From: Allobosea sp. Leaf344
Lineage (GTDB): Bacteria; Pseudomonadota; Alphaproteobacteria; Rhizobiales; Beijerinckiaceae
Length of the DNA stretch: 64,000 nt
Reading direction: 5' to 3'
Assembly: GCF_001426225.1 (NCBI RefSeq)
Contig: NZ_LMRT01000016.1
Span: forward strand, 62,001-126,000
The notes beneath the pieces are model-generated. The model saw only the letters and a list, made by a program, of their open reading frames with translations. It ran no database searches and was not told the DNA's origin. This document shows, piece by piece, positions 1-28,983 of the stretch. Position 1 is the stretch's first letter; each line of letters begins with the position of its first letter. A program made the position numbers and the translations under genes.

Positions 1-369
1 CACCTTGAACGCGGCATCAGGAAGGTCAGGGTCGGCACGAAAACCGAAAGCAGCGATCGGTGGATACCGCTCCCGCAAGACTTTCTGGAGCGCTATCCCG
101 AGAAGATCGACGGACCCCTGTTCACGAAGTCCAGCAGGACCATGGGCAAGGACCTGCTCAAGGCGTTCCGCGCGCTCGGCCTCAAAGACAAGAAGCTGGT
201 GAACCACTCACTTCGTCACCGCGCCAAGGATCGGCTCAGGGCCGAGGAATGTCCCGAGGACATTCAGGAATGGATTTGCGGGCATGAGGAGATCACGGCT
301 GCCGATGGATACGGAAAAGGGCCGCCGATGACCGTCCTCAAACCTTGGATTGATTTGATCGGATACTGA
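1..369 (+). CDS. Tyrosine recombinase/integrase, C-terminal part (5' end outside window)
   Basis: The open frame runs from the first base of the window to the stop at 367-369, giving about 122 residues of the catalytic domain of a phage-type integrase. The C-terminal catalytic signature is visible: the HSLRH box (His-x-x-Arg), then GH about 30 residues later, then the probable nucleophilic Tyr in DGYGKG. Such enzymes cut and rejoin DNA at attachment sites. The N-terminal arm-binding and core-binding domains are outside the window, so it cannot be told whether the gene is intact. It points to integration of this island or of a neighbouring one. Confidence 0.8.
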   Translation, partial: HLERGIRKVRVGTKTESSDRWIPLPQDFLERYPEKIDGPLFTKSSRTMGKDLLKAFRALGLKDKKLVNHSLRHRAKDRLRAEECPEDIQEWICGHEEITAADGYGKGPPMTVLKPWIDLIGY

Positions 370-2668: not shown

Positions 2669-3487
2669 ATGACCGAGAATGCACGCCACGACGCCTGGAG
2701 CGCCGGAGACAGCTACAACCGTTATATGGGCCGCTGGAGCCGACAGATCGCACCGCTGTTCCTCGACTGGATCGATGCCCCTGCCGGTGCGGACTGGCTC
2801 GATGTAGGCTGCGGGACCGGCGCGCTATCTGCTGCCATTGTCGCTCGATGTTCGCCGCGAAGCGTGGTCTCCATCGATCCGTCAGAGGGCTTTCTCCAGA
2901 CAGCAGGGGCAGCGGTCACGGATGGTCGCGTGAAGTTCCGGCTCGGCGATGCTCAGGCCATTCCGGCAGCGGACAGAAGCTTCGACGTGATAGCTTCGGG
3001 GCTGGTGCTCAACTTTGTGCCGGACCGCGTCCAGGCTCTGGGCGAGATGCGGCGCGTCAGCCGTCCTGGTGCTTTGATCGGGTTTTATGTCTGGGACTAT
3101 CCCGGCGGCGGCATCGAGTTCATGCGGGCCTTTTGGAGCGCAGCGATAGAACTCGACCCGAAGGCTTCGGACCTGATGGAAGGCAAGCGCTTCCCATTCT
3201 GCACCCCCGATGGGCTCGCGGCGCTGGCCAGGGAAGGGGGCCTTGAGGTCCTCGACCAAACCGCCATCGAAGCGCCAACGGTGTTCCAGGACTTTGACGA
3301 CTACTGGCATCCGTTCACGCTCGGAGCAGGCCCCGCACCCGGCTATTGCATGAGCCTTGACCCAGACCACCGGGAACGACTGCGACAGAAGCTCGACGAG
3401 ACATTGCCTCGACAGGAAGATGGCTCGATCCGGCTTATGTCGAGAGCGTGGGCGGTGAAGGCGAGCGGCTCTCGCTTTACTACTTAG
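2669..3487 (+). CDS. Class I SAM-dependent methyltransferase
   Basis: A 272-residue protein with the SAM-binding glycine loop LDVGCGTG at residues 44-51, an acidic residue ending the second strand (VSIDPS), and the post-loop motif FDVIASGLVLNFV. This is the Rossmann-fold layout of small-molecule methyltransferases (UbiE/Methyltransf_11 type). The substrate cannot be told from the sequence. The ATG at 2669 has a GGAGG ribosome-binding site about 10 bases upstream. A DUF4242 gene follows 71 bases downstream on the same strand and may be cotranscribed. Confidence 0.85.
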   Translation: MTENARHDAWSAGDSYNRYMGRWSRQIAPLFLDWIDAPAGADWLDVGCGTGALSAAIVARCSPRSVVSIDPSEGFLQTAGAAVTDGRVKFRLGDAQAIPAADRSFDVIASGLVLNFVPDRVQALGEMRRVSRPGALIGFYVWDYPGGGIEFMRAFWSAAIELDPKASDLMEGKRFPFCTPDGLAALAREGGLEVLDQTAIEAPTVFQDFDDYWHPFTLGAGPAPGYCMSLDPDHRERLRQKLDETLPRQEDGSIRLMSRAWAVKASGSRFTT

Positions 3488-3558
3488 GTCGCCCAGCAGG
3501 TTGTGGACAGCCTGCTTTGGGAGGAGCAAGCTCTCGATCCAACCTGGGGAGGATGATC

Positions 3559-3831
3559 ATGCCGCAGTTCGTAATCGAGAGAGAAATGCCGGGAGCAGGC
3601 AAGCTCGGACCGGAGGAGCTTAAAGGTGCTTCTCAAGGGTCCTGCAACGTTCTGCGAGAGCTAGGACCTGAGATTCAGTGGGTCCACAGCTATGTCACGG
3701 ACGACAAGATTTACTGCGTTTACCGCGCCCCGAGCGAGGAACTGATCCGCAAGCACGCTGTCACGGCGGGATTTCCCGCGAATAGCATCGCGCAGGTCCG
3801 GGCCACGATCGATCCTACGACAGCAGAGTAG
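3559..3831 (+). CDS. DUF4242 family protein
   Basis: A 90-residue protein starting MPQFVIEREMPGAG and continuing with LGPEIQWVHSYVTDDKIYCVYRA; this strand pattern is typical of DUF4242, a small ferredoxin-like-fold family of which a Streptomyces member binds nickel. The ATG at 3559 is preferred over the in-frame ATG at 3553 because the GGGGAGG ribosome-binding site ends at 3552, leaving proper spacing only for 3559. It lies just after the methyltransferase gene. Its role here is unknown. Confidence 0.75.
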   Translation: MPQFVIEREMPGAGKLGPEELKGASQGSCNVLRELGPEIQWVHSYVTDDKIYCVYRAPSEELIRKHAVTAGFPANSIAQVRATIDPTTAE

Positions 3832-3991
3832 CCGTCTCCTCACATCAGTCTGGCTTTGCAGGCGTCAGTCTGGTCGGCAACCACACGCTCTTGTTGTGGT
3901 TGCTGTTCGTTGAACCGGCATGAACTCTTCGATGTGACGCAGGCCGAACGTTGCGCCCGGTGCAAGCATAGTAGCTGTAACCCTAAACGAC

Positions 3992-4013
3992 AAAGCCGCC
4001 CGAAGGCGGCTTT
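3992..4013 (-). terminator. Rho-independent terminator after the 4035-4115 micropeptide gene
   Basis: AAAGCCGCC and GGCGGCTTT form a 9-bp perfect stem with a CGAA loop. Read on the minus strand it lies 22 bases after the micropeptide stop and is followed by TTTGTCGTTT. Confidence 0.65.
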
Positions 4014-4034
4014 GCCATTATTAGTCTCGATGCG

Positions 4035-4115
4035 TCAGGGGCAGCAGGAGACTGTTGCGAGAGCCGGGGCCGCCAGGATCATCAGCGTGGTGAGAGTGAG
4101 AGCGACAAGCTTCAT
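4035..4115 (-). CDS. Secreted micropeptide ending Ser-Cys-Cys-Pro (copy 1)
   Basis: A 26-codon frame reads MKLVALTLTT, then LMILAAPALA, then TVSCCP and TGA. Residues 1-20 form a complete signal peptide: Lys at position 2, a hydrophobic core and an ALA cleavage site. Cleavage would leave only TVSCCP. A TTGGAGA ribosome-binding site lies 7 bases before the ATG, and a hairpin terminator follows the stop, so the unit looks like a complete monocistronic gene. A homologous copy lies at 7942-8019; the two differ mainly at synonymous codon positions, which argues strongly for translation. Function is unknown; the vicinal cysteines could bind metal or be modified. Confidence 0.7.
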   Translation of the reverse strand: MKLVALTLTTLMILAAPALATVSCCP

Positions 4116-4234
4116 TGCATTCTCCAAGTTGTGAAACCAAAGCTACCCGGCACCGGGTAGCTAATCCACCGCATGAGGGATCACAAATCTGGCAGTGACA
4201 CGGGCGCTTTCGTTTCGCACGAAGCCGACCGAGG

Positions 4235-4355
4235 CCGTCTCACACGAGCAGGGTCTTCTGAGCCGTCGCACAGATGTTCCAGAACTGTCTCATACAAATC
4301 GGTTGCGAGTTTGAGAATGCGTGAGAGGCTCGGGTCTTAGGATCATGTGAGACGG
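4235..4355. promoter_or_regulatory. Candidate recombination/operator site of the serine recombinase
   Basis: Upstream of the recombinase, CCGTCTCACA (4235-4244) and TGTGAGACGG (4346-4355) are perfect inverted copies, and a related CTGTCTCATAC lies between them at 4285-4295. The right copy ends 8 bases before the recombinase ATG and overlaps its ribosome-binding region. Resolvase genes often carry their res site or operator here. That this protein binds these copies is inference. Confidence 0.45.
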
Positions 4356-4363
4356 AGAGCAGA

Positions 4364-4936
4364 ATGGCAGGAATACTGATTGGATATTCGAGGACAAGTA
4401 GTTCTGACCAACAGGCTGGGCTTGAGGCGCAGGAACGGGACCTGAAGGCGGCTGGCGTCGAGAAGATGTTCTCCGAACAGGTCTCGTCGGTAGCGCGGCG
4501 GGAGCAGTTGGAAGCCGCTATCGACTTCTCTCGCTCGGGCGACACGCTGGTCGTCACCCGTCCCGACCGGCTCTCTCGCGGCGTCGCTGATCTGCTCCAA
4601 ATCATCGAGAGGTTAGAGAGAAAGGGTGTCGCCCTCCGCATCCTGAGCTTCGGGGGTGGAGGCGCGTTCGACACGTCCAACGCAACATCGAAGCTGATCA
4701 TGACCATCCTGGCCGGGACGGCAGCCTGGGAGCGTGCCGTGATGTTGGAGCGGCAACTCGAAGGAATTGCGAAGGCGAAGGCTGCGGGCAGATACCGGGG
4801 CCGAGCACCGACCGCCCGCAGACAGGCGGAAACAGTCAGGGCTCTCCACGCCGAGGGGGCGAAGGTCGCCGACATCGTCAGACAGGTCGGGATCAGCCGG
4901 GCCAGCGTCTATCGATGCCTGAACTCCGCAGCGTGA
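4364..4936 (+). CDS. Serine recombinase (resolvase/invertase family)
   Basis: A 190-residue protein of the usual resolvase length. The N-terminal catalytic motif reads IGYSRTSSSDQQ, with Ser12 at the position of the nucleophilic serine. RPDRLSRGVADLL carries the conserved arginine box, and the C-terminus (VADIVRQVGISRASVYRCL) is a Hin-type helix-turn-helix. Such enzymes resolve cointegrates or invert segments through a serine-DNA link. No transposase is adjacent, so it may be a lone resolvase maintaining the island or the remnant of a Tn3-like element. The ATG at 4364 has a GGAGA motif upstream. Confidence 0.88.
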   Translation: MAGILIGYSRTSSSDQQAGLEAQERDLKAAGVEKMFSEQVSSVARREQLEAAIDFSRSGDTLVVTRPDRLSRGVADLLQIIERLERKGVALRILSFGGGGAFDTSNATSKLIMTILAGTAAWERAVMLERQLEGIAKAKAAGRYRGRAPTARRQAETVRALHAEGAKVADIVRQVGISRASVYRCLNSAA

Positions 4937-5086
4937 CGGAAGAGTTCTGACCGCGAGTTCTGCGACACCGTCCGCACGGAAATCCCAGACGATCTCGATC
5001 AGGCCGAGGCTCTCTCGGAAACGACCGATTGTGAGAGAGATGGAGCGTGAGCGTGCCATGCAGCCGACACACTGCCATTTTTGCCT

Positions 5087-5308
5087 TCAACCGCAGCAGG
5101 GCGAAGTCTTACCGGTCTGACGGGCTTCCTGGATCGGAGGACAGGGGGCGTCACCGTAGGAACAGAACACGCAGCAATCTCCTGGCTTGGGGCGCAAGAC
5201 GGTCCCGCAGCCGCTGCACTCGTAGAAGAACTGGCAGGCGTCAGTCGGCATGGTCTCGACGGACTGTTTGCCGCACTGCGGGCAGGTCAGCGTGGATTGA
5301 AACTGCAT
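5087..5308 (-). CDS. GDCCVxC domain protein
   Basis: A 73-residue, cysteine-rich protein. Cys9/Cys12 and Cys31/Cys34 form two CxxC/CxGC pairs like a small zinc ribbon, and the signature GDCCVFCSYGD covers residues 43-53 with Cys45, Cys46 and Cys49. Two more vicinal cysteines (Cys71, Cys72) end the protein. The GDCCVxC family is known from databases partly as selenoproteins; here all positions are plain cysteine codons with no in-frame UGA. Its biochemical role is not established. It may belong with the thiol/metal genes around it. Confidence 0.8.
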   Translation of the reverse strand: MQFQSTLTCPQCGKQSVETMPTDACQFFYECSGCGTVLRPKPGDCCVFCSYGDAPCPPIQEARQTGKTSPCCG

Positions 5309-5526
5309 AATCTCTCATTCTCCTCCACATCTGATGCTCGAAGCACAATCAGAAGCTACGAAGCTTTGAACAGCAAGCGGGCTCATACGCTAGAAGCTGG
5401 TTGCTAGATCGCTAATGGGGGTTCTCTAACTCACCGCCGGATGATCAACAGCGCCCAACCATACGGGCGAACTGGTTGAAATATCAGTACAAGAACGCGC
5501 CGTTGGGCCGGTGAGGGGTATCTGTT

Positions 5527-6303
5527 TTGCAGATTTTCGACGGTCTTCTGTTAGCCGGTGCGGGGCTAATCGCTGGGGGAGTTAACGCCATCGCGGGTGG
5601 CGGTACGTTCTTTACATTTGCAGCGTTGATGGCCGTAGGCATCCCACCAGTCGCCGCGAACGCCACCAGCGCCGTGGCGGTGATGCCGGGCTCTATCGCC
5701 TCGACCATCGCCTATCGACGCGAGATTTTGGCCTTGGGGCGTACGCTGGTTCCGCTCTGCTTGATTTCCGCCGCCGGAGGATTGGCGGGTGGATGGCTGC
5801 TCCTGAACACGGACAACACGACGTTTCGCGGACTGGTACCTTGGCTCTTGCTCTTTGCTACGGCCTTGTTCGCGATTTCACCTAAAATCTTGCCGCTTGT
5901 AAGCTACCTGACGTCAAAAAACGGGGATTTCGATAGTTCCGCAACACCATTCTCTCTCGGTGGAATCGTCTTACAAGGTTTAGTGGCCATCTATGGCGGA
6001 TATTTCGGCGCTGGAATGGGGATAATGATGCTCGCATCACTGTCGCTAATATTCGGCGACCGTTTCCATGACGCCAATTCGGCCAAGAACATCCTTTCTG
6101 TGTTCATGCAGGGGTTTGCGGTAATTCTTTTTTTGTTCTCTGGACTTGTGCATTGGCCCGAGGCGTTGGTTGTCACAGCGTCGAGCATCCTGGGTGGGAT
6201 TTTAGGGGTAGTGGTAGCTCGACGGGTTCCGACCAGCGTCATACGCTGGTCGGTTATCAGTGTAGGCGCGGCGCTAAGTACGCTGTATTTTGTGCAGTCC
6301 TGA
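5527..6303 (+). CDS. TauE/SafE family sulfite-exporter-like permease
   Basis: A 258-residue integral membrane protein with several hydrophobic segments and the family hallmark near the N-terminus, GGVNAIAGGGTFFTF, echoed in the second half by YGGYFGAGMGIMMLASL. TauE/SafE proteins export sulfite, sulfoacetate or related organic anions across the inner membrane. The start is TTG at 5527 in a GAGGGG-containing context. No sulfonate catabolic genes are adjacent, so the substrate is open. Base composition is less GC-rich than in the right half of the window. Confidence 0.85.
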   Translation: MQIFDGLLLAGAGLIAGGVNAIAGGGTFFTFAALMAVGIPPVAANATSAVAVMPGSIASTIAYRREILALGRTLVPLCLISAAGGLAGGWLLLNTDNTTFRGLVPWLLLFATALFAISPKILPLVSYLTSKNGDFDSSATPFSLGGIVLQGLVAIYGGYFGAGMGIMMLASLSLIFGDRFHDANSAKNILSVFMQGFAVILFLFSGLVHWPEALVVTASSILGGILGVVVARRVPTSVIRWSVISVGAALSTLYFVQS

Positions 6304-6349
6304 AGGTGTCCGGGCTCTGTCGGTAGCGTAAAAACCTACAATGTGATTG

Positions 6350-6901
6350 TTAGACCGCCGCCATTACCTCGCCGCGCGCCGGATAGCCGCTGGCGACCAC
6401 GAAGTCGATTGCGCTTAGAACGTCAGAAAACTGAGGCCGCGCAAATGGCATCGTCTGCACGGAGCAGAAGTAAAGGGTGACGTCCGGGCGGACAAGGTAG
6501 AGAGCGGGTTCGGCGAAACGAGGGGGCTCTTCCAGGCCAGCCGAGGTCTTGCCATTGGAGGAGGAGACGTAGAGGCCCCAGGCTCGCGCCTGAAGAAGCC
6601 CCAACCCGAAACCGATCCGTAGATTTTGCAGGGTCCAGTCGGACTTGGTTTGCTCCGCGCGCTCCTGGACATCAGTCGATACCGCCACGACGCCAACGCC
6701 TCGCCTTTCGAACTCTGGTAGCTTCGCCTCAAGGTCTCGAAGCTGAGCCTTGCACAGGGGGCAGTGGAGGCCCCGGTAGAACACGACCAGCGTGAACTGC
6801 TCCGGGCTCTCCGCCGCGAGGTCGAAGGACCCTCCACCCGCGAGAGGAACCACGAGAGGCGGAACAGGCTGGCGCGGAAACAAGGGGGTGAGGTCGGTCA
6901 T
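6350..6901 (-). CDS. Peroxiredoxin-like protein (AhpC/TSA family)
   Basis: A 183-residue thioredoxin-fold protein. The strand and loop LVVFYRGLHCPLCKAQLRDL place a redox-active CxxC at residues 47-50, where peroxiredoxin-like proteins carry their peroxidatic cysteine. VVAVSTDVQE is the usual following strand. It probably reduces peroxides or acts as a thiol oxidoreductase in the cytoplasm; no signal peptide is seen. A HAD hydrolase gene lies 26 bases upstream on the same strand, so the two are probably cotranscribed. Confidence 0.85.
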   Translation of the reverse strand: MTDLTPLFPRQPVPPLVVPLAGGGSFDLAAESPEQFTLVVFYRGLHCPLCKAQLRDLEAKLPEFERRGVGVVAVSTDVQERAEQTKSDWTLQNLRIGFGLGLLQARAWGLYVSSSNGKTSAGLEEPPRFAEPALYLVRPDVTLYFCSVQTMPFARPQFSDVLSAIDFVVASGYPARGEVMAAV

Positions 6902-6927
6902 GTGCGTCTCCAGTATGAAGCGTTCGA

Positions 6928-7596
6928 TCAGGGCAAGCCGAGCAGTGCGTTGGCTACGTCGGTCAACTCCTGGCCTTGAATGTCAGGCGTGAGCATCACG
7001 TCGGGATAAGGCTGACCTCGGGCAACGAAAGCCGTCATCAGCCCGGCTGCCTTAGCACCGTGCGTGTCCCAGGCGTGGGTGGCAGTAAGGGCTACCTCGG
7101 AAAGATCAACCCCTACGCAGTGGGCGACGTGCCGGTACACCTCCGGTCGCGGCTTCGATAGGCTCACATCCTCAACCGAAATCACCTGCTCTATAAAACC
7201 GTCCAACTTAGCGCGCTTCAGGAGGGTCTCAGTGGAAGTTCGCGCGCCGTTGCTGACGGCGCCGAGCCTGAAACCCCCGTCCGAAAGCGCCTTGAACGAG
7301 GCGTGCGCATCGGGGTGAGGGTCAAGACTCTTCATACCCTCCAGCACGCTCGATGCGCGCTGCTCGTCTAAGGGTAGTCGGTGAGCGTGCAGAAGGGTGA
7401 GCAGCGCGCCCTTCAAGATAATCGGGAATGGGGAAAACCGGTCTGTCAGAGCGATCGCAAACGCATCGCGAAGCCCTGACGCAAACCAGATTTCCATCGC
7501 ACTTGCCGGTAGCCCAAGGCCCTCCAGTCGAGGCCGCATACTTTCCAGCGAGAACACTGTCTCAATGATGTCGAAGGCTACGACTTTTGGTCTCAA
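6928..7596 (-). CDS. HAD-superfamily hydrolase, haloacid dehalogenase type II-like
   Basis: A 222-residue protein. The N-terminal motif VVAFDIIETVFS holds the nucleophilic Asp9; LGAVSNGA is motif II; a Lys (LSKPRPEVY) is motif III; and the motif IV region reads TATHAWDTHGAKAAG. The length and the DIxET start fit haloacid dehalogenase type II or related phosphatases. FDIIE deviates from the usual FDxNETL, so substrate assignment is uncertain. It lies directly upstream of the peroxiredoxin-like gene. Confidence 0.82.
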   Translation of the reverse strand: MRPKVVAFDIIETVFSLESMRPRLEGLGLPASAMEIWFASGLRDAFAIALTDRFSPFPIILKGALLTLLHAHRLPLDEQRASSVLEGMKSLDPHPDAHASFKALSDGGFRLGAVSNGARTSTETLLKRAKLDGFIEQVISVEDVSLSKPRPEVYRHVAHCVGVDLSEVALTATHAWDTHGAKAAGLMTAFVARGQPYPDVMLTPDIQGQELTDVANALLGLP

Positions 7597-7941
7597 CGAC
7601 CCAACTCAACGCCATCGTTCCGGCCTTGATCACCGTCACTTGCAAAACAGCGACGTTAGCCGGTGCCATCGCAGTGGTTGGCGCGGCGACAAGTTCTTAC
7701 CCGGTTCATTCGAATGCGAGTCGTTAGTGTGGTTCTGGAAAGCAGGCTCAGAGAGAGGGCCAGAGGCACTCGAAGGCCAGCGTTTCCTGCGCCTGATCCA
7801 TCAACATTCTGTGAAACCGGCGGGTCAGCAGAGCGTCACCGTGCACCGGCGGACGTGATGTGCCATCATTGTGAAAGATAGCCTTGTGGAAGATTGCAAG
7901 CGCGCGGTGTAGATTTCCGTGCCAACCAACTGGAGACCGAC
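7597..7941. other. Intergenic stretch, nothing recognised
   Basis: About 345 bases between the start of the HAD gene and the second micropeptide. Short frames exist on both strands but none has a ribosome-binding site or protein-like composition. The promoters of the two divergent units probably lie here. Confidence 0.5.
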
Positions 7942-8019
7942 ATGAAACTCATTGCACTGACGCTGACCACGATGATGATGCTTGCTGCCCCGGCTCTTGC
8001 TGGCGTCTGCTGCCCCTGA
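7942..8019 (+). CDS. Secreted micropeptide ending Val-Cys-Cys-Pro (copy 2)
   Basis: A 25-codon frame reads MKLIALTLTT, then MMMLAAPALA, then GVCCP and TGA, with a TGGAGA ribosome-binding site 8 bases before the ATG. It aligns with the 4035-4115 micropeptide over its whole length with one single-residue gap (no Ser before Cys-Cys). Codon pairs such as AAA/AAG, CTC/CTT, GCA/GCT, CTG/CTC, ACG/ACT and GCT/GCG differ silently, while the residues are kept. The mature part after the ALA site would be only about five residues. Function is unknown. A weak hairpin (8039-8062) follows. Confidence 0.7.
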   Translation: MKLIALTLTTMMMLAAPALAGVCCP

Positions 8020-8038
8020 CGCTCAAGAACAAGACGAG

Positions 8039-8062
8039 CAGAGCCGCTTTCGAGGGGCTCTG
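8039..8062 (+). terminator. Possible terminator after micropeptide copy 2
   Basis: CAGAGCC (8039-8045) pairs with GGCTCTG (8056-8062). No strong U tract follows, so it is a weak call. Confidence 0.3.
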
Positions 8063-8144
8063 TCATCGCCAGTTCGACCGCTCGAACTATCGCTCGGCTT
8101 CTGATCTCATAGGCTGAGAGCGAACTGTATGGGCCGGGGCGGGG

Positions 8145-8645
8145 CTAATCAAAATCGAGATATTGCCGCAATGGGTCCGAATTCGATTGCGGGACCTCGC
8201 GGCGTTGGTCGTGTGGGATATTTTTTGCTGGCTCCTCTGCGAGCCCTAGACTTTCCTCAAGCAGCTTACGGTCCAGCAGGGGACGTAATTTGGAGCCGGA
8301 CTCAAGTGGAGGTGAGACAATATCCCACCGCTGAGCCAACTCGCTCTGGGTGATCTGTGCTACTACGGCTGCGATCTGTTTCTTCTTGCGCACCGTCATC
8401 GCCAGGATCATGGCGAAAGACTCTGTGTCCCGGTTTACGCGAACCACCGTCCCCTCGATCCGGCCAAGCCTGTCGATATACGCCACGATCCGCTGCCCCC
8501 GATATGGCAGGATGGGAGAGGTTGTCGAGAACCCATCTGGTGTTACATCGAGGGTCTCACAGGTAATCTCCGAATTATCAGGCATCAACATCCTGCCGTT
8601 AAGCCGCAGGGTTTGTCGGAGATATTTACGTTTTTCTTGATTCAT
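8145..8645 (-). CDS. PilZ domain protein (probable c-di-GMP effector)
   Basis: A 166-residue protein. The N-terminal EKRKYLRQ carries the PilZ RxxxR motif (Arg6, Arg10), and DVTPDGFS is the second c-di-GMP motif in a D-x-T-x-x-G form. A PilZ barrel follows to about residue 95; the C-terminal 70 residues are charged and unassigned. ATG at 8645 is chosen because it overlaps the stop of the upstream GGDEF-EAL gene as TGATG, which indicates translational coupling; the TTG one codon upstream is less likely. The pair would make, break and sense the same second messenger. Confidence 0.82.
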   Translation of the reverse strand: MNQEKRKYLRQTLRLNGRMLMPDNSEITCETLDVTPDGFSTTSPILPYRGQRIVAYIDRLGRIEGTVVRVNRDTESFAMILAMTVRKKKQIAAVVAQITQSELAQRWDIVSPPLESGSKLRPLLDRKLLEESLGLAEEPAKNIPHDQRREVPQSNSDPLRQYLDFD

Positions 8646-10891
8646 CAACTAGAAACTCTGATTTGCTGGTCGCATTCAGTGTTGTTTTCGATCCGGTTGG
8701 GTCCATTGATTGACGCGGTGATCGGCTGGGACCAATTCGATATCAGCCAGGGCACTCTGGTAGCGATCATGGGTTTGGCATAAAAATAGCCTTGGGCCTG
8801 ATCACATCCCATGGCCTTCAGCCTAGCCGCCTGACCAGCGGTCTCCACGCCCTCTGCCGTCACTTCCATCCCCATGCTCTGGCCCAGACTGATAACGGCC
8901 GACACGATCGCAGCGTCTTCGCGGTCTGTTTCAAGATCGCGAATGAAGCTTTGATCGATCTTGACGTGGTGGACGGGGAATCGTTTCAGATGTGTCAGTG
9001 AGGCGAAGCCCGTGCCAAAATCGTCAAGAGCGACAGTCACACCCGCTCTAGCGAACTGCCTGAGGATGTCTAAGGCAGTCTCGGTGCTACGCTCCAAGAA
9101 GACGCTTTCGGTAACCTCGACTTCAAATTTGTACGTCGGGACGCTAAATTCGGCCAACAAGGCGAGTATATGCTCAGCGAGGTGAGGGTCACCAAACTCG
9201 GTGGACGAGAAGTTCACCGCCACCCGTCCGCAGTCAATTCCCTGATCAAGCCAACCGCGCACGTCGCCCAGCACATGTCGGATCATGCGCGCGCCCATCG
9301 CCACGGTGGTTTCTGGATCACTGAAAGCAGGTCCGAAAGAGCCCGGTGCCAAGATGCCACGGCTGGGATGTTGCCACCGAGCTAACGCCTCCAAACCGAC
9401 GATCTCGCCAGTTCTGAGCGAAACCTGCGGTTGATAAAAAGGACGAAACTGGTCAGCGCCTAATCCGTCCCGGACCTCTGCCAGCACCCGCACGCGCTGT
9501 TCGATGCGTTCGCGGGCCGCTTCAGTGTAAACAACAGCGCGCCCTCGTCGCTCAGCCTTTGCCCGATAGAGCGCGATATCAGCATCCTTCATCAACTCAA
9601 TCGGAGAGCCGTGGTGAGCAGGGAACGCCGCTATACCCATGCTGGCTTTGGTCGAGATCGCGCGACCGGCGTAATGGATGACATGCGACATTGCCTCGGC
9701 CAATTCCTGGGCGAACCGAGATGCCTCATCCAAATCCGTATCGAGGAGAATGACAGCGAACTCATCGCCTCCCAAGCGAGCAACCGTATCGATGTCACGC
9801 GCCTTCGCTGACAGTCGCTTTGCAGCTTCGACAAGCAACGCATCGCCTGCGTCATGGCCTAATGTGTCGTTGACCGATTTGAAATCGTCGAGATCGAGCA
9901 GCAGCAGGCTGACACTCGCGCCACTTGCCCCCGCACTCTCTATCGCTTCCGCAAGACGCTGCTGAAAGAGCACACGATTTACAAGGCCCGTTAATGCGTC
10001 ATGATTGGCCATCCACCAAAGTTCTTGCTCAGCCCTTTTTCGATCGGTGATATCGAAAGTTACCCCGATCAAGCGCCTGGGTTTGCCTTCTTCCGAAACT
10101 GCGATTGACCTCGCCGAGAGCCAAACGATTTTCCCATCAGGTCGGACGTAGCGGATTTCTTCTTGCTGGTCGTCTGAGCCCCACATCGGAGCGCGCCACT
10201 TGTCGTCGCGGTGGACCCGATCGTCAAACTCCGACGCGGGGCCGGAGCCAAGGCCAATCAAATCGAGTGCGCTACCGGACCGGGTCACAAAGTCGTCGCT
10301 TAAGTTTCGTTCCCAAGCGAACATTCTGCCTGCTTGGAGGGCCAGTCGAAGGCGCTCATCGCTGTCTCTCAACGCTCGGTTGGCGACGCGAAGTTCCAGT
10401 TCCCGCATAACTGACCGAGCTAAGGCACGAAGGATATCAGCCTGCACGTTTGTGAGCCCATCTGGCCTCGGCTCGTTTCCCAGAACGCAGACAGTCCCCA
10501 GCGGAAGCCCATTGCTGTTTTTCAGGACCGCGCCTGCGTAGAAGCGCACGCGGGCGTTGCCGGTCACAAGCGAGTTTTCGGCGAAGCGAGGGTCCTTGGT
10601 GGTGTCAGGAACGATAAAGAGATCGTCCTGCTTGATGGCGTGGGCACAAATGGACGCATCTATTGGCGTTTCGCAGATGCCCAACCCGATCTCGGATTTG
10701 AACCATTGCCGCGTGTCCTCAACGAAGCTCACCATTGCCATCGGAGCGTTGCAGATTTCTGCGGCGATCCGGGCAATGTCATTAAAGGCGACCTCTGGCT
10801 CTGTATCCAAGATCGCGTAGTCTCGGAGCGCAGCAAGCCGCTCCTGCTGGCTCCAAGCGCGGCGCGAATTCTCGCTCACGCAGCAATCCAT
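8645..10891 (-). CDS. GAF-PAS-GGDEF-EAL cyclic-di-GMP turnover protein
   Basis: A 748-residue cytoplasmic signalling protein from the ATG at 10891. A GAF domain (about residues 10-165, starting RLAALRDYAILDTEPE) is followed by a PAS domain (about 175-290). The GGDEF domain (about 305-465) has an intact RLGGDEFAVI. The EAL domain (about 480-725) has an intact LEALARW, the ALDDFGTGFASL loop, KIDQSF and AEGVE. Both cyclase and phosphodiesterase signatures are therefore complete. The frame is open to a further start at 10996, but the extra 35 residues are not family-like. It is coupled by TGATG to the PilZ gene. Confidence 0.9.
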   Translation of the reverse strand: MDCCVSENSRRAWSQQERLAALRDYAILDTEPEVAFNDIARIAAEICNAPMAMVSFVEDTRQWFKSEIGLGICETPIDASICAHAIKQDDLFIVPDTTKDPRFAENSLVTGNARVRFYAGAVLKNSNGLPLGTVCVLGNEPRPDGLTNVQADILRALARSVMRELELRVANRALRDSDERLRLALQAGRMFAWERNLSDDFVTRSGSALDLIGLGSGPASEFDDRVHRDDKWRAPMWGSDDQQEEIRYVRPDGKIVWLSARSIAVSEEGKPRRLIGVTFDITDRKRAEQELWWMANHDALTGLVNRVLFQQRLAEAIESAGASGASVSLLLLDLDDFKSVNDTLGHDAGDALLVEAAKRLSAKARDIDTVARLGGDEFAVILLDTDLDEASRFAQELAEAMSHVIHYAGRAISTKASMGIAAFPAHHGSPIELMKDADIALYRAKAERRGRAVVYTEAARERIEQRVRVLAEVRDGLGADQFRPFYQPQVSLRTGEIVGLEALARWQHPSRGILAPGSFGPAFSDPETTVAMGARMIRHVLGDVRGWLDQGIDCGRVAVNFSSTEFGDPHLAEHILALLAEFSVPTYKFEVEVTESVFLERSTETALDILRQFARAGVTVALDDFGTGFASLTHLKRFPVHHVKIDQSFIRDLETDREDAAIVSAVISLGQSMGMEVTAEGVETAGQAARLKAMGCDQAQGYFYAKPMIATRVPWLISNWSQPITASINGPNRIENNTECDQQIRVSS

Positions 10892-18007: not shown

Positions 18008-18304
18008 ATGAGACGCATCGAAGCGAGCGGCATTGCGGAACGCGTCCGCGCCGAACGGCTCGCCAGCCACCCCCACGTCGTGAGGCAGCACGGCCTCATG
18101 TGCCACGCTCTCGGCGACGATCGCTTCCGCGCCGAGCTTGACGAACGGCGGCACTGGATCGAGCAACATCGCTCGGCATCATTTGCCTTCGACACTCTGC
18201 CGGATGGCGCTGGGCGAGTGTATTTCTTTGCAGATGCCGATGACGCTTTCCACTTCAAGATGCGGTTCGGAACGCGGGTGTCTCCTCCGCCGCAAGATCG
18301 TTGA
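18008..18304 (+). CDS. Hypothetical protein ending in AFHFKMRFG motif
   Basis: A 98-residue protein from ATG 18008, charged and helical in its first half (ERVRAERLASHPHVVRQH) and ending RVYFFADADDAFHFKMRFG plus ten residues. The last motif recurs in the DUF5131 protein at 26652-27713. The final 50 bases overlap the 3' end of the convergent DNA methyltransferase gene. Function unknown. Confidence 0.5.
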   Translation: MRRIEASGIAERVRAERLASHPHVVRQHGLMCHALGDDRFRAELDERRHWIEQHRSASFAFDTLPDGAGRVYFFADADDAFHFKMRFGTRVSPPPQDR

Positions 18305-19856
18305 GCGGCGAGCCGGTCGTCGGCATCACCTTCGCGATTCGGCGGCGGGCGATCTCGACATACTCGGCCATCATCTCGGAGCCGACGAAGCTGAAGCCTT
18401 CTTGGAGGGCGGCGACGGCTGTCGATCCCGACCCGGCGAAGGGATCAAAAATGATGCCGCCCGGCGGTGTCACAAGGCGGGTCAAATATTTCATTAGTTC
18501 AGACGGCTCGACGCATGGATGTTTGTTTCTCGGACCTCGGTCGGCCTTTGACGCCTTAGCCACGTAGAAGTACCGGCCCCAGGTCTCATCAATACCGTCA
18601 TGAATCACGTTGGCGGGCCATCGGCCATTCTCTGCCCTCGGCGCTTCGACGTATTGCTTCAAGCTCGTCGCTGGTCGAATTCCGGCCGCCACATTGGCTT
18701 CAGTGAAGCTCGCAAAGCCTTTGCTGCCCGGCCGGGATGTTGGTCGATCTTTTCGCGCTACATCGACGAGGCCGGTTGGAGGCAGGCCACGGCCAGTTAG
18801 CGCGACGGAGGTCCCGAGTTTCCTGCCCACCCGACCTTGCTCGATCCGCTCGCTCGTAGGAACGCGACAAGCATCGATGTTCATCGCGCCGGTACCGAAC
18901 CGCACGACGTTGGACGCCACGCTTGTTTCCGCGATCGGCCTGCGCGCGATGATGATCGGTTCGAACGCCGGTTTAAGCGCCGTCCCTCGACCGGCGTGCT
19001 CCCCTCTTAAGTTCAGTGATTTTGGAAATCCCGAACTGTAAATCCACATGATTGTGTCGCGGATTTCAAAGCCTGCATCCTCCACAGCAACCGCGAGACG
19101 ATGGAAGGTCCTCGTCCCCCCGAAGGCAACAAGATGACCGCCGGGCTTCAGGACATTGAAGGCCGCTCGCCACGTTTGCACATCAAATGCGATGTCGCCC
19201 CCGTCCCACTCCTGCTCCATGAAGCCGTTGGCGATTTTGCGGTAAGGATTGTTTGATCCAGGCTCACCGCCGGTCAGCGGAGCCGCTCCTTTCCGACCGA
19301 ACCGGCGAGAGATCGAGCCGAGATGATAAGGGGGATCGGTCACGATCGAGTCGAAAAATACGCCCTCTTCGGCAAAGCCTCGCATCAGATCGCGGCAGTC
19401 GCCATGAAGCAGCCGGGCGGTCGGCGTCGATAGGGGCGCTGGTGCCGCTTCGACTCCGACATCGATGAGTGACGGAGACAAGTTGAGCACAACCATGGCC
19501 GCGCTCAACGTTGCGATGGTGCCCTCGCCACGCTCGATCCGAATGATGGCTGGCCTTGAAACGCCTGCTTGAATCGAGAGACGTTCCTGTGACCGTCCGA
19601 GGCGCTTTCGCGTATGAGCGAGCCAAGGCCCGAGTTCGAGATCAGCAGGCTGCTCGGTGAACCGGTGCGCCAAAGCGTTCAGCACCATCACAAGAGCCGC
19701 TACCGTTCCCCGCGCTGCCTCTAGATTGGCAACCGTCATCCGGGACAGGCCGACCTTGGCAGCAAGCGACCGTTGCGAGAGTTTTCGCGAACGCCGGGCC
19801 TTGACGAGTTCTTCGCCGAGGCGGGCTGCGGCGGCTTCGAGAGTGTCACAATCCAT
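18255..19856 (-). CDS. DNA methyltransferase with two N-terminal HTH (XRE) domains
   Basis: A 533-residue protein. Residues about 20-65 (KLSQRSLAAKVGLSRMTVANLE) and 75-125 (LGRSQERLSIQAGVSRPAIIRIE) are two tandem helix-turn-helix domains of XRE type. The catalytic part has DPPY at about residue 174 and the SAM motif DPFAGSGSTAVAAL at about 470, the order of beta-class amino (N4-cytosine or N6-adenine) methyltransferases. No cognate endonuclease is adjacent, so it is an orphan methylase or a regulatory one whose HTH domains may control its own promoter. The long insertion between the motifs probably reads the target sequence. Confidence 0.88.
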   Translation of the reverse strand: MDCDTLEAAAARLGEELVKARRSRKLSQRSLAAKVGLSRMTVANLEAARGTVAALVMVLNALAHRFTEQPADLELGPWLAHTRKRLGRSQERLSIQAGVSRPAIIRIERGEGTIATLSAAMVVLNLSPSLIDVGVEAAPAPLSTPTARLLHGDCRDLMRGFAEEGVFFDSIVTDPPYHLGSISRRFGRKGAAPLTGGEPGSNNPYRKIANGFMEQEWDGGDIAFDVQTWRAAFNVLKPGGHLVAFGGTRTFHRLAVAVEDAGFEIRDTIMWIYSSGFPKSLNLRGEHAGRGTALKPAFEPIIIARRPIAETSVASNVVRFGTGAMNIDACRVPTSERIEQGRVGRKLGTSVALTGRGLPPTGLVDVARKDRPTSRPGSKGFASFTEANVAAGIRPATSLKQYVEAPRAENGRWPANVIHDGIDETWGRYFYVAKASKADRGPRNKHPCVEPSELMKYLTRLVTPPGGIIFDPFAGSGSTAVAALQEGFSFVGSEMMAEYVEIARRRIAKVMPTTGSPLNDLAAEETPAFRTAS

Positions 19857-22496: not shown

Positions 22497-25400
22497 TTAT
22501 TCCGGCGTGTCGATCTCGTGCATGATCCGATGCGTCTCTTCCAGGACCTTGATGATTTTCTGATAGTGGCGGATATCGTCCCAGGTCAGCTCACTACTTC
22601 GACGATCTTTCAACCACTTCTGTGCAGGCTGATACCCGCCCACGTAGAGGTTCCAAGCCGCTCCCGGCACGTTCGAAAAATACTGCGTGTCGTTGATCCA
22701 AACTCGCTTCGGTTCGTAACGGGGCTTTACGACGACGCTGTTTCCGCAGCCCTCGAACGGGTAGGAAGCTTTGCCGATAGCAGCATCTTCCATCAGGTGT
22801 AGCCTTCGCAGCTTCTCACCAGCAGCACTAACCGTGGCAAAATGCTTAAGGGAGGTCGGCAATGGTACGCGGGGGAAGCCTAGTTTAAGCGATTTGGAGT
22901 TCGCTTCCCGATATGAGGGCGAGTACATCGCACCGTAGACGTAGTCGAAGACCTTGACCTCGTCGCGTCGGTCGTCCCCCGTCGCTCGACGGAAATCCTC
23001 TTTGGGATTTGGCTGGACAAATGGTGCGCTCAAACCGGCCAGCTTACGGAGTTTAGCGTACAGCTTCGGCTCGAAATTGAGATGCACTTCGGTGGCCAGT
23101 TTTCCTTTGCGAGGATGCAGATAAAGGGGTGCAGTGTAATTCACCTCCTTGATGCTCAGTGAATGGTGGGTGATGGGCAGGTCGTGGACCAAGAAGTCCG
23201 CGAATTCGCGCCCGCCTTCAATCGTTCGGGTATAGGCAATGCCAAGATTGGGCCACGCCCTGAAGTCCTCCATGAAGTCGAACCGGCCCCAATCGACCAT
23301 ATCGGGCCGCGACAAAATCGAGCGGGTGTCGAACGGTCTATAGAGAATCGGCTTGATGTCGTTGATCCAGTCGCTCGTCTGGAGCGCCTTGCGCGCGGCC
23401 GGAAGCTTCCAACCACGCGAGTCGCCGGGAGCATACTTTCCGGCCTTCTTGCCTCCAAAGAAGCGGTTTCTTACCTCACTGTCCGTCAGTTCGGTGTCGG
23501 TGAATACATTGATCCGATTGATCAGTTCAGCCTCGTTGAGGGCGATCACGAGATGATCGCGCGCCGAAACAATCCCGGCAACATTCTCGGGCATGAGCTC
23601 GTCGATCGAGAAGCCCTTGTCGTAGTCACCGTGGTCGCTGGCTTGGCTGCGAGGTGCGAAAGGAAATTGCGGAGCCGCTGGGGCAAGCAGGTCGGCGGAC
23701 AGCTCGGCGAAACTGCTGGCCCATAACGTATCATTCTTCGCTGCGCGAGAGCCCCACAAATCTCCATGGAACACCTCCGCTGGGGCCTTCGCGGCCTTGC
23801 CGATTTGCTTGCGCTTGACCGCGATGATGATCGCCACGCCTTGCATGATGTCGAACACGTTCTCGTCGGCGCTCCCGTCGGGGCTGACCTCCTTCTTGTT
23901 GGAGTTCCCGTGGAGGTCCAGGACGTGGATGCGGTCGAAGGTCCGCATCAAGTGGGCGCGCATGCCACGGAACGTGGGATTTTCAAGATAGCCGTGGTTG
24001 GTGATGAAGCCGAGGACGCCTTCGCCATTCTGGTTGATCATGTGCTCGGAGAGGCGAATGAACTTAACGTAATCGTCTTGAAGCCAGTGCTTCCGCTCGC
24101 CGAAATGAACCCCGTTGACGTACTTGTAATCCTCGATTTTATCGAGAATCCACTCACCGTTGTTGTGGCTGATCCCGCTGTAGGGCGGATTACCGATGAT
24201 CACCATTATCGGCGTCTGGCGTTTGATGTCGCTGGCGGCTTTCGCCTCCTCAGCAATCGCGCGCGAGAGGCCGAACAGAGTTTGATCAACACGCTCACCT
24301 TCTTCAAGCGAGTTCGTCAGATAGACACCCAGACGCGGCGGCTTCGCCGAGGGCTGGTAGCCCAGGCCGGTGAGGATCATGTCCAACTTCATATGGCACA
24401 TCGCATAGCTTGCCATCAGGAGCTCGAAGCCATGGATGCGCGGGATCAGGTCCTGCTCGACATACTTCGACCACTGTCCCGGCGCGATGCCCTGAACTCG
24501 CTCGGCCACCTGCTTGACCACCTCGGCCAAGAACGTCCCGGTTCCGGTGGCCGGATCAAGAATCTGGACCCGGTGAACCTGTTTCTTAATCGTATGCGCC
24601 TTCCCTTTCCGACCGTGCTGGCCAGTGTCCCAATCGATTGTGATCCGGCTCGTATCCGCGAGACCATCGTCCAGGCCAAACTCAGTTCTCAGAACCTCGT
24701 CCACGGCCCGGACGATGAAATTGACCACCGGCTCAGGTGTGTACCAGACGCCGCGCGCCTTCCGTTTCGCCGGGTTGTACTCGGCCAGGAAGACTTCATA
24801 GAAATGCAGGAAGGGGTCCTGCCGGGCCGATACCTTTCCGAAGCCCTTCAGCACCTTTGTCATGTTGGTTGCGGCGAATAGGTTGCATAGCTCGTCGATC
24901 ACGCGGCGCAGACGTTGATCTAGCGTCGGCCCGGCGATGTAGATAAAAAGCTCCCGCAGAAACGGGTTGGATTTCGGGAGAAGCTCCAGCGCTTCGGAAC
25001 GGGTGAACGAGTTCGGGGTGTCGTCGTGAAGGCGCGCTGCGAAGAGACCGTACGCGATCGTTTCCGCATAGATGTCGGCGAAGTCGGCAACGGTGATGTC
25101 GTGAATGAGGTCTGTCTTGAAAGCCTTAAGCTGACCAACCAGATCGCTTGGCGTCGCCCCTTTGGTTTCGGCTTCGAGGTCGGCCGTCAACGCACGAAAC
25201 ATGATGTCTTTGACGATGGCAGCTTTACCAGCCATCAGCTCGGCCAACCGTTTCGACGAGGTGATTGACAGCGGCGTCGTCGTCGCAAAGTCGCGGAGAC
25301 GGTTCCAGAGCGTCTCAAAGCTCTTGGCGTAGGCGGGCAGCTTCGGGGCAAGCTCTGCGATGCTGACGAAGTCGGTCGTGACCCCGTCGCGGATGAACTC

Positions 25401-25730
25401 GAAGTCCAGCCCGTTCGTGTAGATCAGGTTGGGAAGGCCCTTCTTGTAACGCTCCTTTTGAGATTTGCTGTAATCGGTGGACGAGAATTTGCGGATGTCC
25501 TTGCCGATGTCCTTCGCCTCGCACCAACCGATCGCGATCTCGTTCCGATTAAAGACAAAATCAGGAGCTCCCACATCGGTCATGTGCTTCGGCTCGTTGA
25601 TCACCACGAGTGCGGGATCGACCGCCCTGAACAGCTTGACCAGAGCCGGACGGAAGCTGTGCTCAGTGGTCTGGCCACTGGCGTGCAGCGAACGTATTTC
25701 GCTCAGATAAGCCTGAATGTGGATGTCCAT
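22497..25730 (-). CDS. Type ISP/IIG restriction-modification enzyme
   Basis: A 1077-residue single-chain enzyme. The N-terminus has a nuclease-like core, GAPDFVFNRNEIAIGWCEAK, matching PD-(D/E)xK spacing. The N6-adenine methylase has motif I DPATGTGTFLAEV at about residue 391 and NPPY at about 513. The C-terminal 400 residues (ILYRPFDTRSILSRPD and later) are the target-recognition part of the type ISP family. No helicase motifs are seen, unlike LlaBIII, so it is closer to type IIG or PglX-like enzymes. It methylates self DNA and cuts unmodified DNA as one polypeptide. The XRE regulator lies upstream on the same strand. Confidence 0.85.
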   Translation of the reverse strand: MDIHIQAYLSEIRSLHASGQTTEHSFRPALVKLFRAVDPALVVINEPKHMTDVGAPDFVFNRNEIAIGWCEAKDIGKDIRKFSSTDYSKSQKERYKKGLPNLIYTNGLDFEFIRDGVTTDFVSIAELAPKLPAYAKSFETLWNRLRDFATTTPLSITSSKRLAELMAGKAAIVKDIMFRALTADLEAETKGATPSDLVGQLKAFKTDLIHDITVADFADIYAETIAYGLFAARLHDDTPNSFTRSEALELLPKSNPFLRELFIYIAGPTLDQRLRRVIDELCNLFAATNMTKVLKGFGKVSARQDPFLHFYEVFLAEYNPAKRKARGVWYTPEPVVNFIVRAVDEVLRTEFGLDDGLADTSRITIDWDTGQHGRKGKAHTIKKQVHRVQILDPATGTGTFLAEVVKQVAERVQGIAPGQWSKYVEQDLIPRIHGFELLMASYAMCHMKLDMILTGLGYQPSAKPPRLGVYLTNSLEEGERVDQTLFGLSRAIAEEAKAASDIKRQTPIMVIIGNPPYSGISHNNGEWILDKIEDYKYVNGVHFGERKHWLQDDYVKFIRLSEHMINQNGEGVLGFITNHGYLENPTFRGMRAHLMRTFDRIHVLDLHGNSNKKEVSPDGSADENVFDIMQGVAIIIAVKRKQIGKAAKAPAEVFHGDLWGSRAAKNDTLWASSFAELSADLLAPAAPQFPFAPRSQASDHGDYDKGFSIDELMPENVAGIVSARDHLVIALNEAELINRINVFTDTELTDSEVRNRFFGGKKAGKYAPGDSRGWKLPAARKALQTSDWINDIKPILYRPFDTRSILSRPDMVDWGRFDFMEDFRAWPNLGIAYTRTIEGGREFADFLVHDLPITHHSLSIKEVNYTAPLYLHPRKGKLATEVHLNFEPKLYAKLRKLAGLSAPFVQPNPKEDFRRATGDDRRDEVKVFDYVYGAMYSPSYREANSKSLKLGFPRVPLPTSLKHFATVSAAGEKLRRLHLMEDAAIGKASYPFEGCGNSVVVKPRYEPKRVWINDTQYFSNVPGAAWNLYVGGYQPAQKWLKDRRSSELTWDDIRHYQKIIKVLEETHRIMHEIDTPE

Positions 25731-28335: not shown

Positions 28336-28906
28336 TCGTGCTTCGAACGACGAGCGGCGAATTACCTGCACGGCAGCCAACCATTTTTCGCCGAGGTAGG
28401 GGCGACCTAACCGTAGCCACTTGAGCCTTCCCCCGCCCATTCCGACGCTCGCTGCCTCCTGCTCTAAAAACCCCGTCTCCACCTGTTCGCTGACCGTCGT
28501 CGCAACCCCTTGCAAACATGGGCCTGACGACGCTCACCGACCGCGCCGAAGACCGTAGCTGAAACCATCTGTCTTTGATTGATTGGGAGACGATCCGTGA
28601 GACGGTCGGGGCATAAAGCGCGTCGCCCTCTATGCCATGGGCTAGACAGAACCAAGACCAAAATCGACAGCAGCAATTTCATCCGCGACCGTGGCGCGAA
28701 TCTGCTCTGCACCGTCAAAATAAAGCTGGTCAGGCGGGTATTTGAGGCGGCTATCGCAGAGGAGAGAATCCGAACCCGGTCTGACGGACAGCGCTCTCAC
28801 ACGGGTCCGTGATTCTGCGGCAGGTGGACGAGCGTCTGGAGAGTAGTGTCTAAAGGGTGTCGCTAAGCGACTAAACTCCAGGGAATTACCCCAATGAAAT
28901 CAGTGA
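28336..28906. other. Non-coding island end next to tRNA-Arg
   Basis: About 570 bases with no convincing gene on either strand. It separates the last island gene from the tRNA 3' end and may contain attachment-site DNA; no obvious repeat of the tRNA end is seen. Confidence 0.5.
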
Positions 28907-28983
28907 TGGCGCGCCCGAAAGGATTCGAACCTCTGACCCTCAGATTCGTAGTCTGATGCTCTATCCAGCTGAGCTACGGGCGC
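28907..28983 (-). tRNA. tRNA-Arg, anticodon ACG
   Basis: The minus strand folds into a full cloverleaf of 77 nt: acceptor stem GCGCCCG/CGGGCGC, D arm AGCTCAGCTGGATAGAGC, anticodon stem TCAGA/TCTGA with loop CTACGAA (anticodon ACG), T arm with GTTCGAATC, then discriminator G and an encoded CCA at 28907-28909. It reads arginine CGU (and, after A-to-I editing, CGC/CGA) codons. The 3' end faces the island. Confidence 0.95.

Follow-up and report, generated by a model that had tools for sequence, protein, structure and literature searches.

The window, by which we mean the whole 64,000-nucleotide stretch of Allobosea sp. Leaf344 DNA analysed here (contig NZ_LMRT01000016.1, positions 62,001 to 126,000), contains two very short open reading frames that encode nearly the same peptide. 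The frames, their signals and their most relevant neighbours are as follows.

1..369, plus strand: C-terminal part of an integrase-like gene with an att repeat, its frame open from contig position C15:61095, before the window
3448..3831, plus strand: SCO4226-like ('nickel responsive') protein (PF14026, E 1.2e-26), convergent with copy 1 and ~0.2 kb from it
3991..4014, minus strand: terminator-like hairpin of copy 1, CAAAGCCGCC-TTCG-GGCGGCTTTG, a perfect dyad with a short U tract, its GCCGC core 24 nt after the stop
4035..4115, minus strand: copy 1, 26 codons plus stop, MKLVALTLTTLMILAAPALATVSCCP
4121..4127, minus strand: Shine-Dalgarno-like TTGGAGA of copy 1
4141..4162, minus strand: perfect 22-bp dyad upstream of copy 1, AGCTACCCGG-TG-CCGGGTAGCT, a possible operator or 5′ hairpin
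5087..5308, minus strand: GDCCVxC (seleno)protein (NF041374, E 1.2e-30)
7930..7936, plus strand: Shine-Dalgarno-like CTGGAGA of copy 2
7942..8019, plus strand: copy 2, 25 codons plus stop, MKLIALTLTTMMMLAAPALAGVCCP
8035..8068, plus strand: hairpin of copy 2, the weakest of five, its GCCGC core 23 nt after the stop
28906..28923, minus strand: 18-bp repeat made of 17 bp from the tRNA end and one further base, recurring at C15:60958 (window -1042)
28907..28983, minus strand: tRNA-Arg(ACG), the island boundary

A sequence-only reading of this DNA had reported two frames of 26 and 25 codons with nearly the same peptide, and both are present at those lengths. It had given the correct interval for the first copy and no strand; the frame is on the minus strand, and plus-strand frame 1 of 4035-4115 encodes an unrelated peptide. 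The TGGAGA ribosome-binding site that it proposed is found a few bases 5′ of the ATG in both copies, and in place of its approximately nine silent codon pairs we counted ten between copies 1 and 2. Altogether 17 of 75 aligned nucleotides differ between the copies while 21 of 25 residues are identical, giving a dN/dS of 0.09 (NG86). Seventeen random substitutions left a mean of 14.4 residues unchanged, and at least 21 were kept in none of 20,000 trials. The window and 54 control stretches of 20 kb, together 1.144 Mb, hold 5,635 ATG-to-stop frames of 20–40 aa, nested starts being separate entries, and 601 of these have a Shine-Dalgarno-like sequence upstream. A simple rule that looks for a signal peptide and a short tail, composed after the twins were known, selects three of the 601, and two of those three are the twins. 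The substitution trials and the short-frame count together rule out random coincidence.

Profile searches extended the pair to five members in four genomes: copies 1 and 2 in the window's genome (G000) and one member each in G013, G141 and G733. The member in G013, of the same genus, is MKLIVLTLTTLVVLAAPALASCPSCP and was found with a profile of the twin pair among 67 genus genomes. Within the same family, a three-member profile run against 298 genomes yielded MKLVAMTLTTLMVMAAPALACCPGCP from Enterovirga aerilata (G141), and a four-member profile run against 397 genomes yielded MKLVLLTVSTFVALAAPALAACCP from G733; each of the three peptides is followed by a stop. All five have 24–26 codons, start with MKL and end in Cys-Pro-stop, and the stretch LAAPALA is kept across members, reading MAAPALA in one. 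The tails TVSCCP, GVCCP, SCPSCP, CCPGCP and ACCP carry two or three cysteines. A recent local duplication of the twins is unsupported, since the nucleotide identity between copies 1 and 2 (0.77) is no higher than that of either copy to the Enterovirga member (0.78 for copy 1, 0.79 for copy 2).

The gene is rare, true members being confined to 4 of the 397 family genomes. At E up to 0.01 the family search gave matches in nine genomes, four of them true (G000, G013, G141 and G733). On inspection of their sequences, the matches in G270, G294, G120 and G755 and a second one in G013 proved to be longer proteins or frames that lack a suitable start, and G009 was rejected on its 788-aa frame alone. 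The genus search at E up to 0.1 matched 8 of 67 genomes, with true members in two (G000 and G013). The G057 match was a longer protein when its sequence was inspected, while those in G004, G009, G012, G024 and G065 lie in frames of 86–788 aa and were rejected on frame length only. No member beyond the window's two was detected at E up to 0.001 in the order samples (397 genomes, in two draws that are probably much alike) or the class sample (289 genomes); one order match, in G662, was the signal peptide of a longer protein. Among 51 genomes of G733's genus and nine of Enterovirga, the sole carriers were G733 and G141 themselves. A degenerate DNA pattern, which fits the four members then known and as we read it would miss G733, matched once among 84,980 species represented by one genome each, at the G141 locus itself in Enterovirga aerilata DB1703, which NCBI places in Methylobacteriaceae. 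Viral contigs held no member, two that matched the hairpin pattern being ends of longer frames. Searches by tblastn gave no match in plasmid records for the copy 1 and G141 peptides or in phage records for the G141 peptide, weak negatives because the BLAST low-complexity filter was on.

The gene is absent from the family libraries searched. Pfam has no family for any of the five peptides, DUF2946 included (E up to 1 for the twins, up to 0.01 for the other three), NCBIfam gave no match for the two window copies, and the best PHROGs value was E 0.32, for one member of five. The peptides had no match in the PDB, and no description of the gene was recognised in the open-licence literature.

Comparison of the five members suggests that it is the peptide that is maintained. 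All ten member pairs have a dN/dS of 0.07–0.49 (NG86), values that are rough because each pair offers few synonymous sites (~19–22). Over codons 1–20 the pairwise differences number 51, 10 and 100 at codon positions one, two and three, respectively, and length differences between members are whole codons. Selection on the protein sequence, which the sequence-only reading had proposed and for which it had suggested a dN/dS test, is supported by the homologues and these ratios, and the locus has the look of a coding gene whose protein product is selected.

The earlier description of the precursor as almost all signal peptide fits its anatomy of MK, hydrophobic core and A-x-A, with cleavage a prediction. 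The basic n-region, core and A-x-A were recognised by eye, and for the window copies also by the simple rule. All five members keep the A-x-A site, and the signal-like part is conserved at least as well as the tail. A lipobox has the form [LVI]-[ASTVI]-[GAS]-Cys at the cleavage site. By eye, LASC of G013 and LAAC of G733 fit it, TVSC of copy 1 fits a looser pattern only, and AGVC of copy 2 and ALAC of G141 do not fit. Because copy 2 and G141 are without a lipobox, lipoprotein modification is not a family trait.

Upstream of the frames little is shared beyond the ribosome-binding sites. The dyad 5′ of copy 1 has no second site in the window at up to three mismatches and was not seen by eye 5′ of the other four members; a terminator scan includes it (4141-4162) among its minus-strand terminator-like sites. 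Upstream of copy 2 (window 7869-7894), the near-identical stretches TTGTGAAAGAT and TTGTGGAAGAT are 15 bp apart. No shared promoter or operator motif was found by eye in the upstream stretches of the five members, and where 2.1 sites were expected, a sigma-70-type scan of 3000-9500 returned two, both away from the twins.

Downstream, a stem of the AAGCCGCC...GGCGGCTT type lies 3′ of the stop in all five members, diverged in copy 2, and its GCCGC core starts 22–24 nt after the stop. The five 54-nt folds span -18.9 to -27.9 kcal/mol (z -1.6 to -5.1). That of copy 1 reaches -27 kcal/mol (z -5.1), and none of 200 shuffles folds as well for copy 1, G141 or G733; the figures are 6 of 200 for G013 and 13 of 200 for copy 2 (-18.9 kcal/mol, z -1.6). 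Both partners have changed in three stem pairs, each time in a single sequence, and two pairs are broken, again each in a single sequence. The stretch from stop to hairpin keeps its length and not its sequence, and frame and hairpin together measure ~125–135 nt. An exact AAGCCGCC stem is found three times in the 4.35-Mb genome, at copy 1 and at two other sites, neither of which showed an extra gene copy nearby, and it is missing from all 1.08 Mb of control stretches. Other AAGCCGCC hairpins stand 15–30 nt behind unrelated frames, which argues that such stems are terminators with an ordinary spacing, and the near-constant distance from stop to hairpin was dropped as a special feature. The two downstream hairpins of the window are missing from the terminator scan (5 sites against 5.0 expected), probably because they lack five T's, and their terminator role is therefore inferred; the U tracts after the hairpins are short.

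Both window copies are cargo of a ~30-kb tRNA-Arg island that runs from C15:60958 to window position 28923, with a G+C content of 58.8% in the window part and 69.2% beyond. The outer 18-bp repeat lies 137 bp before the first ATG of the integrase-like frame, which has weak Pfam matches below cut-off (PF13102, 0.0022; PF00589, 0.0083). At gathering thresholds Rfam recognises only the tRNA in the window. Besides the genes listed above, the island carries a TauE-type transporter, a redoxin, a HAD hydrolase and a serine recombinase. A 1077-aa frame at window 22497-25730 resembles, by eye, a fused methylase-endonuclease of the restriction-modification kind, and a methylase-like gene is located at window 18255-19856. 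The shared island, the Cys-Pro-stop ending in every member and the hairpin 3′ of the frame all go beyond what the sequence-only reading described.

The remaining loci add two further mobile settings to the tRNA island, one beside a relaxase and one beside transposition genes. The G013 gene has a MobA/MobL relaxase on one side and, on the other, a series of Metal_resist-like (below cut-off), DUF305 and CusA/CzcA genes. The Enterovirga gene is convergent with a MerR regulator nearest the CueR, CadR and ZntR models (below their cut-offs), which has a cation efflux protein beside it, and TnsA-like (below cut-off) and TniB-like genes are near. At this locus (L013 11153-15224) the TnsA-like, TniB-like and transposition-type genes near metal cargo may form a Tn7-like element. 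The G733 gene starts 296 bp from a contig end. Its neighbours on the other side are a FecR protein, a protein whose SCO4226-like match stays sub-threshold (0.0027; 18.3 bits, with the cut-off at 28.5) and one that, judged from its sequence, looks like a GGDEF/EAL protein.

To gauge the background for the metal link, 54 stretches of 20 kb drawn from G013 (20), G141 (18) and the window's contig (16) were searched with eight seed proteins taken from the four loci. The seeds matched in 1 of 54 stretches, through a SCO4226-like gene at 48% identity, or in 3 of 54 if two stretches with RND pumps at 25–28% identity, taken as other RND types, are counted; the four loci themselves score by construction, the seeds having been drawn from them and the test framed post hoc. 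Metal genes are not common background in the control genomes, but mobile islands often carry them anyway.

Gene order bears on whether the short frame might act on what lies beyond it. The next downstream gene is convergent in three of the five loci, being SCO4226-like at copy 1, PilZ-like (below cut-off) at copy 2 and MerR in G141. The other two have a co-directional next ORF, the relaxase at ~0.3 kb in G013 and an unrelated ORF at ~0.1 kb in G733. No downstream gene is common to the five loci, and no cysteine or sulfur gene was recognised as the next gene in any of them, family scans covering the next genes other than that of G733. The suggestion that the leader is itself the functional part is thus disfavoured in its regulatory sense by the three convergent neighbours; read as an uncleaved membrane peptide, it may hold.

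We class the gene among small exported or membrane proteins, and tentatively favour the explanation that it is a free-standing, mobile gene for an envelope micropeptide with a cysteine tail that would bind soft metals or thiols. The micro-gene comprises a ribosome-binding site, a frame of 24–26 codons and a hairpin, and it is found on or near mobile elements in a few related alphaproteobacteria. Once translated, the Sec-signal-like peptide would place its four-to-six-residue tail on the outer side of the inner membrane or, if signal peptidase cleaves it, in the periplasm. There the two or three cysteines and the terminal Cys-Pro may react with thiols or bind metals of the Cu, Zn, Cd or Hg class, and the peptide would assist the metal-handling genes that accompany it. 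This ligand reading is favoured by the invariant Cys-Pro and the metal-gene neighbours, and the tiny exported thiol or metal ligand of the sequence-only reading is accordingly best kept as a plausible candidate function, with some support from those neighbours. A narrower form, which we consider unlikely, is that of a genetically encoded dithiol, in which an unmodified exported tail such as ACCP, SCPSCP or CCPGCP would serve as a periplasmic or secreted metal ligand spread together with pumps. Against a ligand, the metal link is post hoc, the SCO4226-like match of G733 is sub-threshold and no particular metal is indicated. A 26-residue chain is also short for normal Sec targeting, and conservation of the signal-like part at least equal to that of the tail is needless for a mere targeting signal.

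That last point speaks for the main rival of the ligand reading, a somewhat unlikely one in our estimate, in which an uncleaved signal-anchor micropeptide acts in the inner membrane as a modulator of a transporter or protease, or as a toxic peptide of the TimP kind, and the cysteines tune it or form a disulfide. A chain of 24–26 aa could make one membrane span, and a signal-like part that is the most conserved is also reported for TimP (PMC7667032). All five peptides keep A-x-A, whereas the same source gives TimP a cleavage-disfavouring Leu at -3 (PMC7667032), and retention of the Cys-Pro end in all five likewise tells against this rival.

Distinctly less probable is a minimal nascent-chain sensor like CutF/CruR, in which the cysteines bind metal, the terminal Pro slows termination and both are coupled to RNA folding. 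A finished chain of 24–26 aa would still sit in the ribosomal tunnel, which counts against it. Signal sequence, Cys pair, C-terminal Pro and stem-loop are also parts of CutF (PMC9973294). The Pro-stop is present in all five members, and a C-terminal Pro can stall termination in E. coli (PMC7246954, citing Hayes 2002), but that study reports no significant expression change from C-terminal proline in its own library (PMC7246954). The three convergent next genes, with a relaxase (G013) and an unrelated ORF (G733) as the other two, the want of a common downstream gene and the negative Pfam result for all five, DUF2946 included, argue against such control.

We think it very unlikely that the transcript is a functional small RNA with its terminator, the frame being incidental or a second function. 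The compensatory changes in the conserved hairpin and the ~125–135 nt of frame plus hairpin would suit it, but the excess of third-position differences, dN/dS below 0.5 and whole-codon indels point to the peptide, the stretch between stop and hairpin is conserved in length alone, and AAGCCGCC hairpins 15–30 nt behind unrelated frames make the spacing ordinary for a terminator. A cysteine-responsive attenuator leader, with Cys codons placed before a terminator, is highly improbable: short frames ending in Cys codons and followed by a hairpin do recall the cysteine-rich regulatory sORFs noted in mycobacteria (PMC9094748, citing Canestrari 2020), but the first gene past the hairpin is convergent in three of five loci and no recognisable cysteine gene in the other two, no downstream gene is common to all, members differ in how many Cys codons they have and where, and conservation of the remaining residues would not be required.

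The interest of the case lies in a conserved gene whose product is about as small as exported proteins get. If the tail were a metal ligand, it would show that a thiol chelator only a few residues long can be directly encoded by an organism, and an encoded dithiol would stand beside glutathione-like or methanobactin-like ligands as their ribosomal counterpart. If the signal-like core were instead the active part, it would join the cases in which a signal-like sequence is functional. The peptide is so small that its synthesis and full testing are feasible.

Among known systems, methanobactin precursors resemble the micropeptide in being short, Cys-containing and alphaproteobacterial, with a metal theme. 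They differ in that no maturation genes were recognised by eye among the ORFs beside the present loci, and the N-terminus here is Sec-signal-like. Mycobacterial polycysteine short-ORF attenuators share a short frame with Cys codons (PMC9094748), whereas here no recognisable sulfur gene lies downstream, the whole peptide is conserved and it has a signal-like core. TimP is small, with a predicted signal peptide that stays uncleaved, and its N-terminal signal sequence is reported to be better conserved than the rest (PMC7667032). Small size and a well-conserved N-terminal part, signal-like in our peptides, are shared, but TimP is enterobacterial and repressed by the sRNA TimR (PMC7667032), whereas the present gene combines A-x-A, a Cys-Pro tail and a mobile setting. 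CutF/CruR and TimP-like proteins are the nearest working analogues, and the five peptides are not CutF/CruR members. CutF has ~120 aa. CruR has 145 aa (PMC9426467) against 24–26 aa here, where there is no DUF2946 match, and both head operons that they control, while the present loci have no shared downstream gene and a convergent one in three of five. What CutF/CruR have in common with the micropeptide is a signal sequence, predicted in the case of the micropeptide, a cysteine motif, a C-terminal proline and metal-linked neighbourhoods (PMC9973294, PMC9426467) and, for CutF, a stem-loop behind the frame (PMC9973294).
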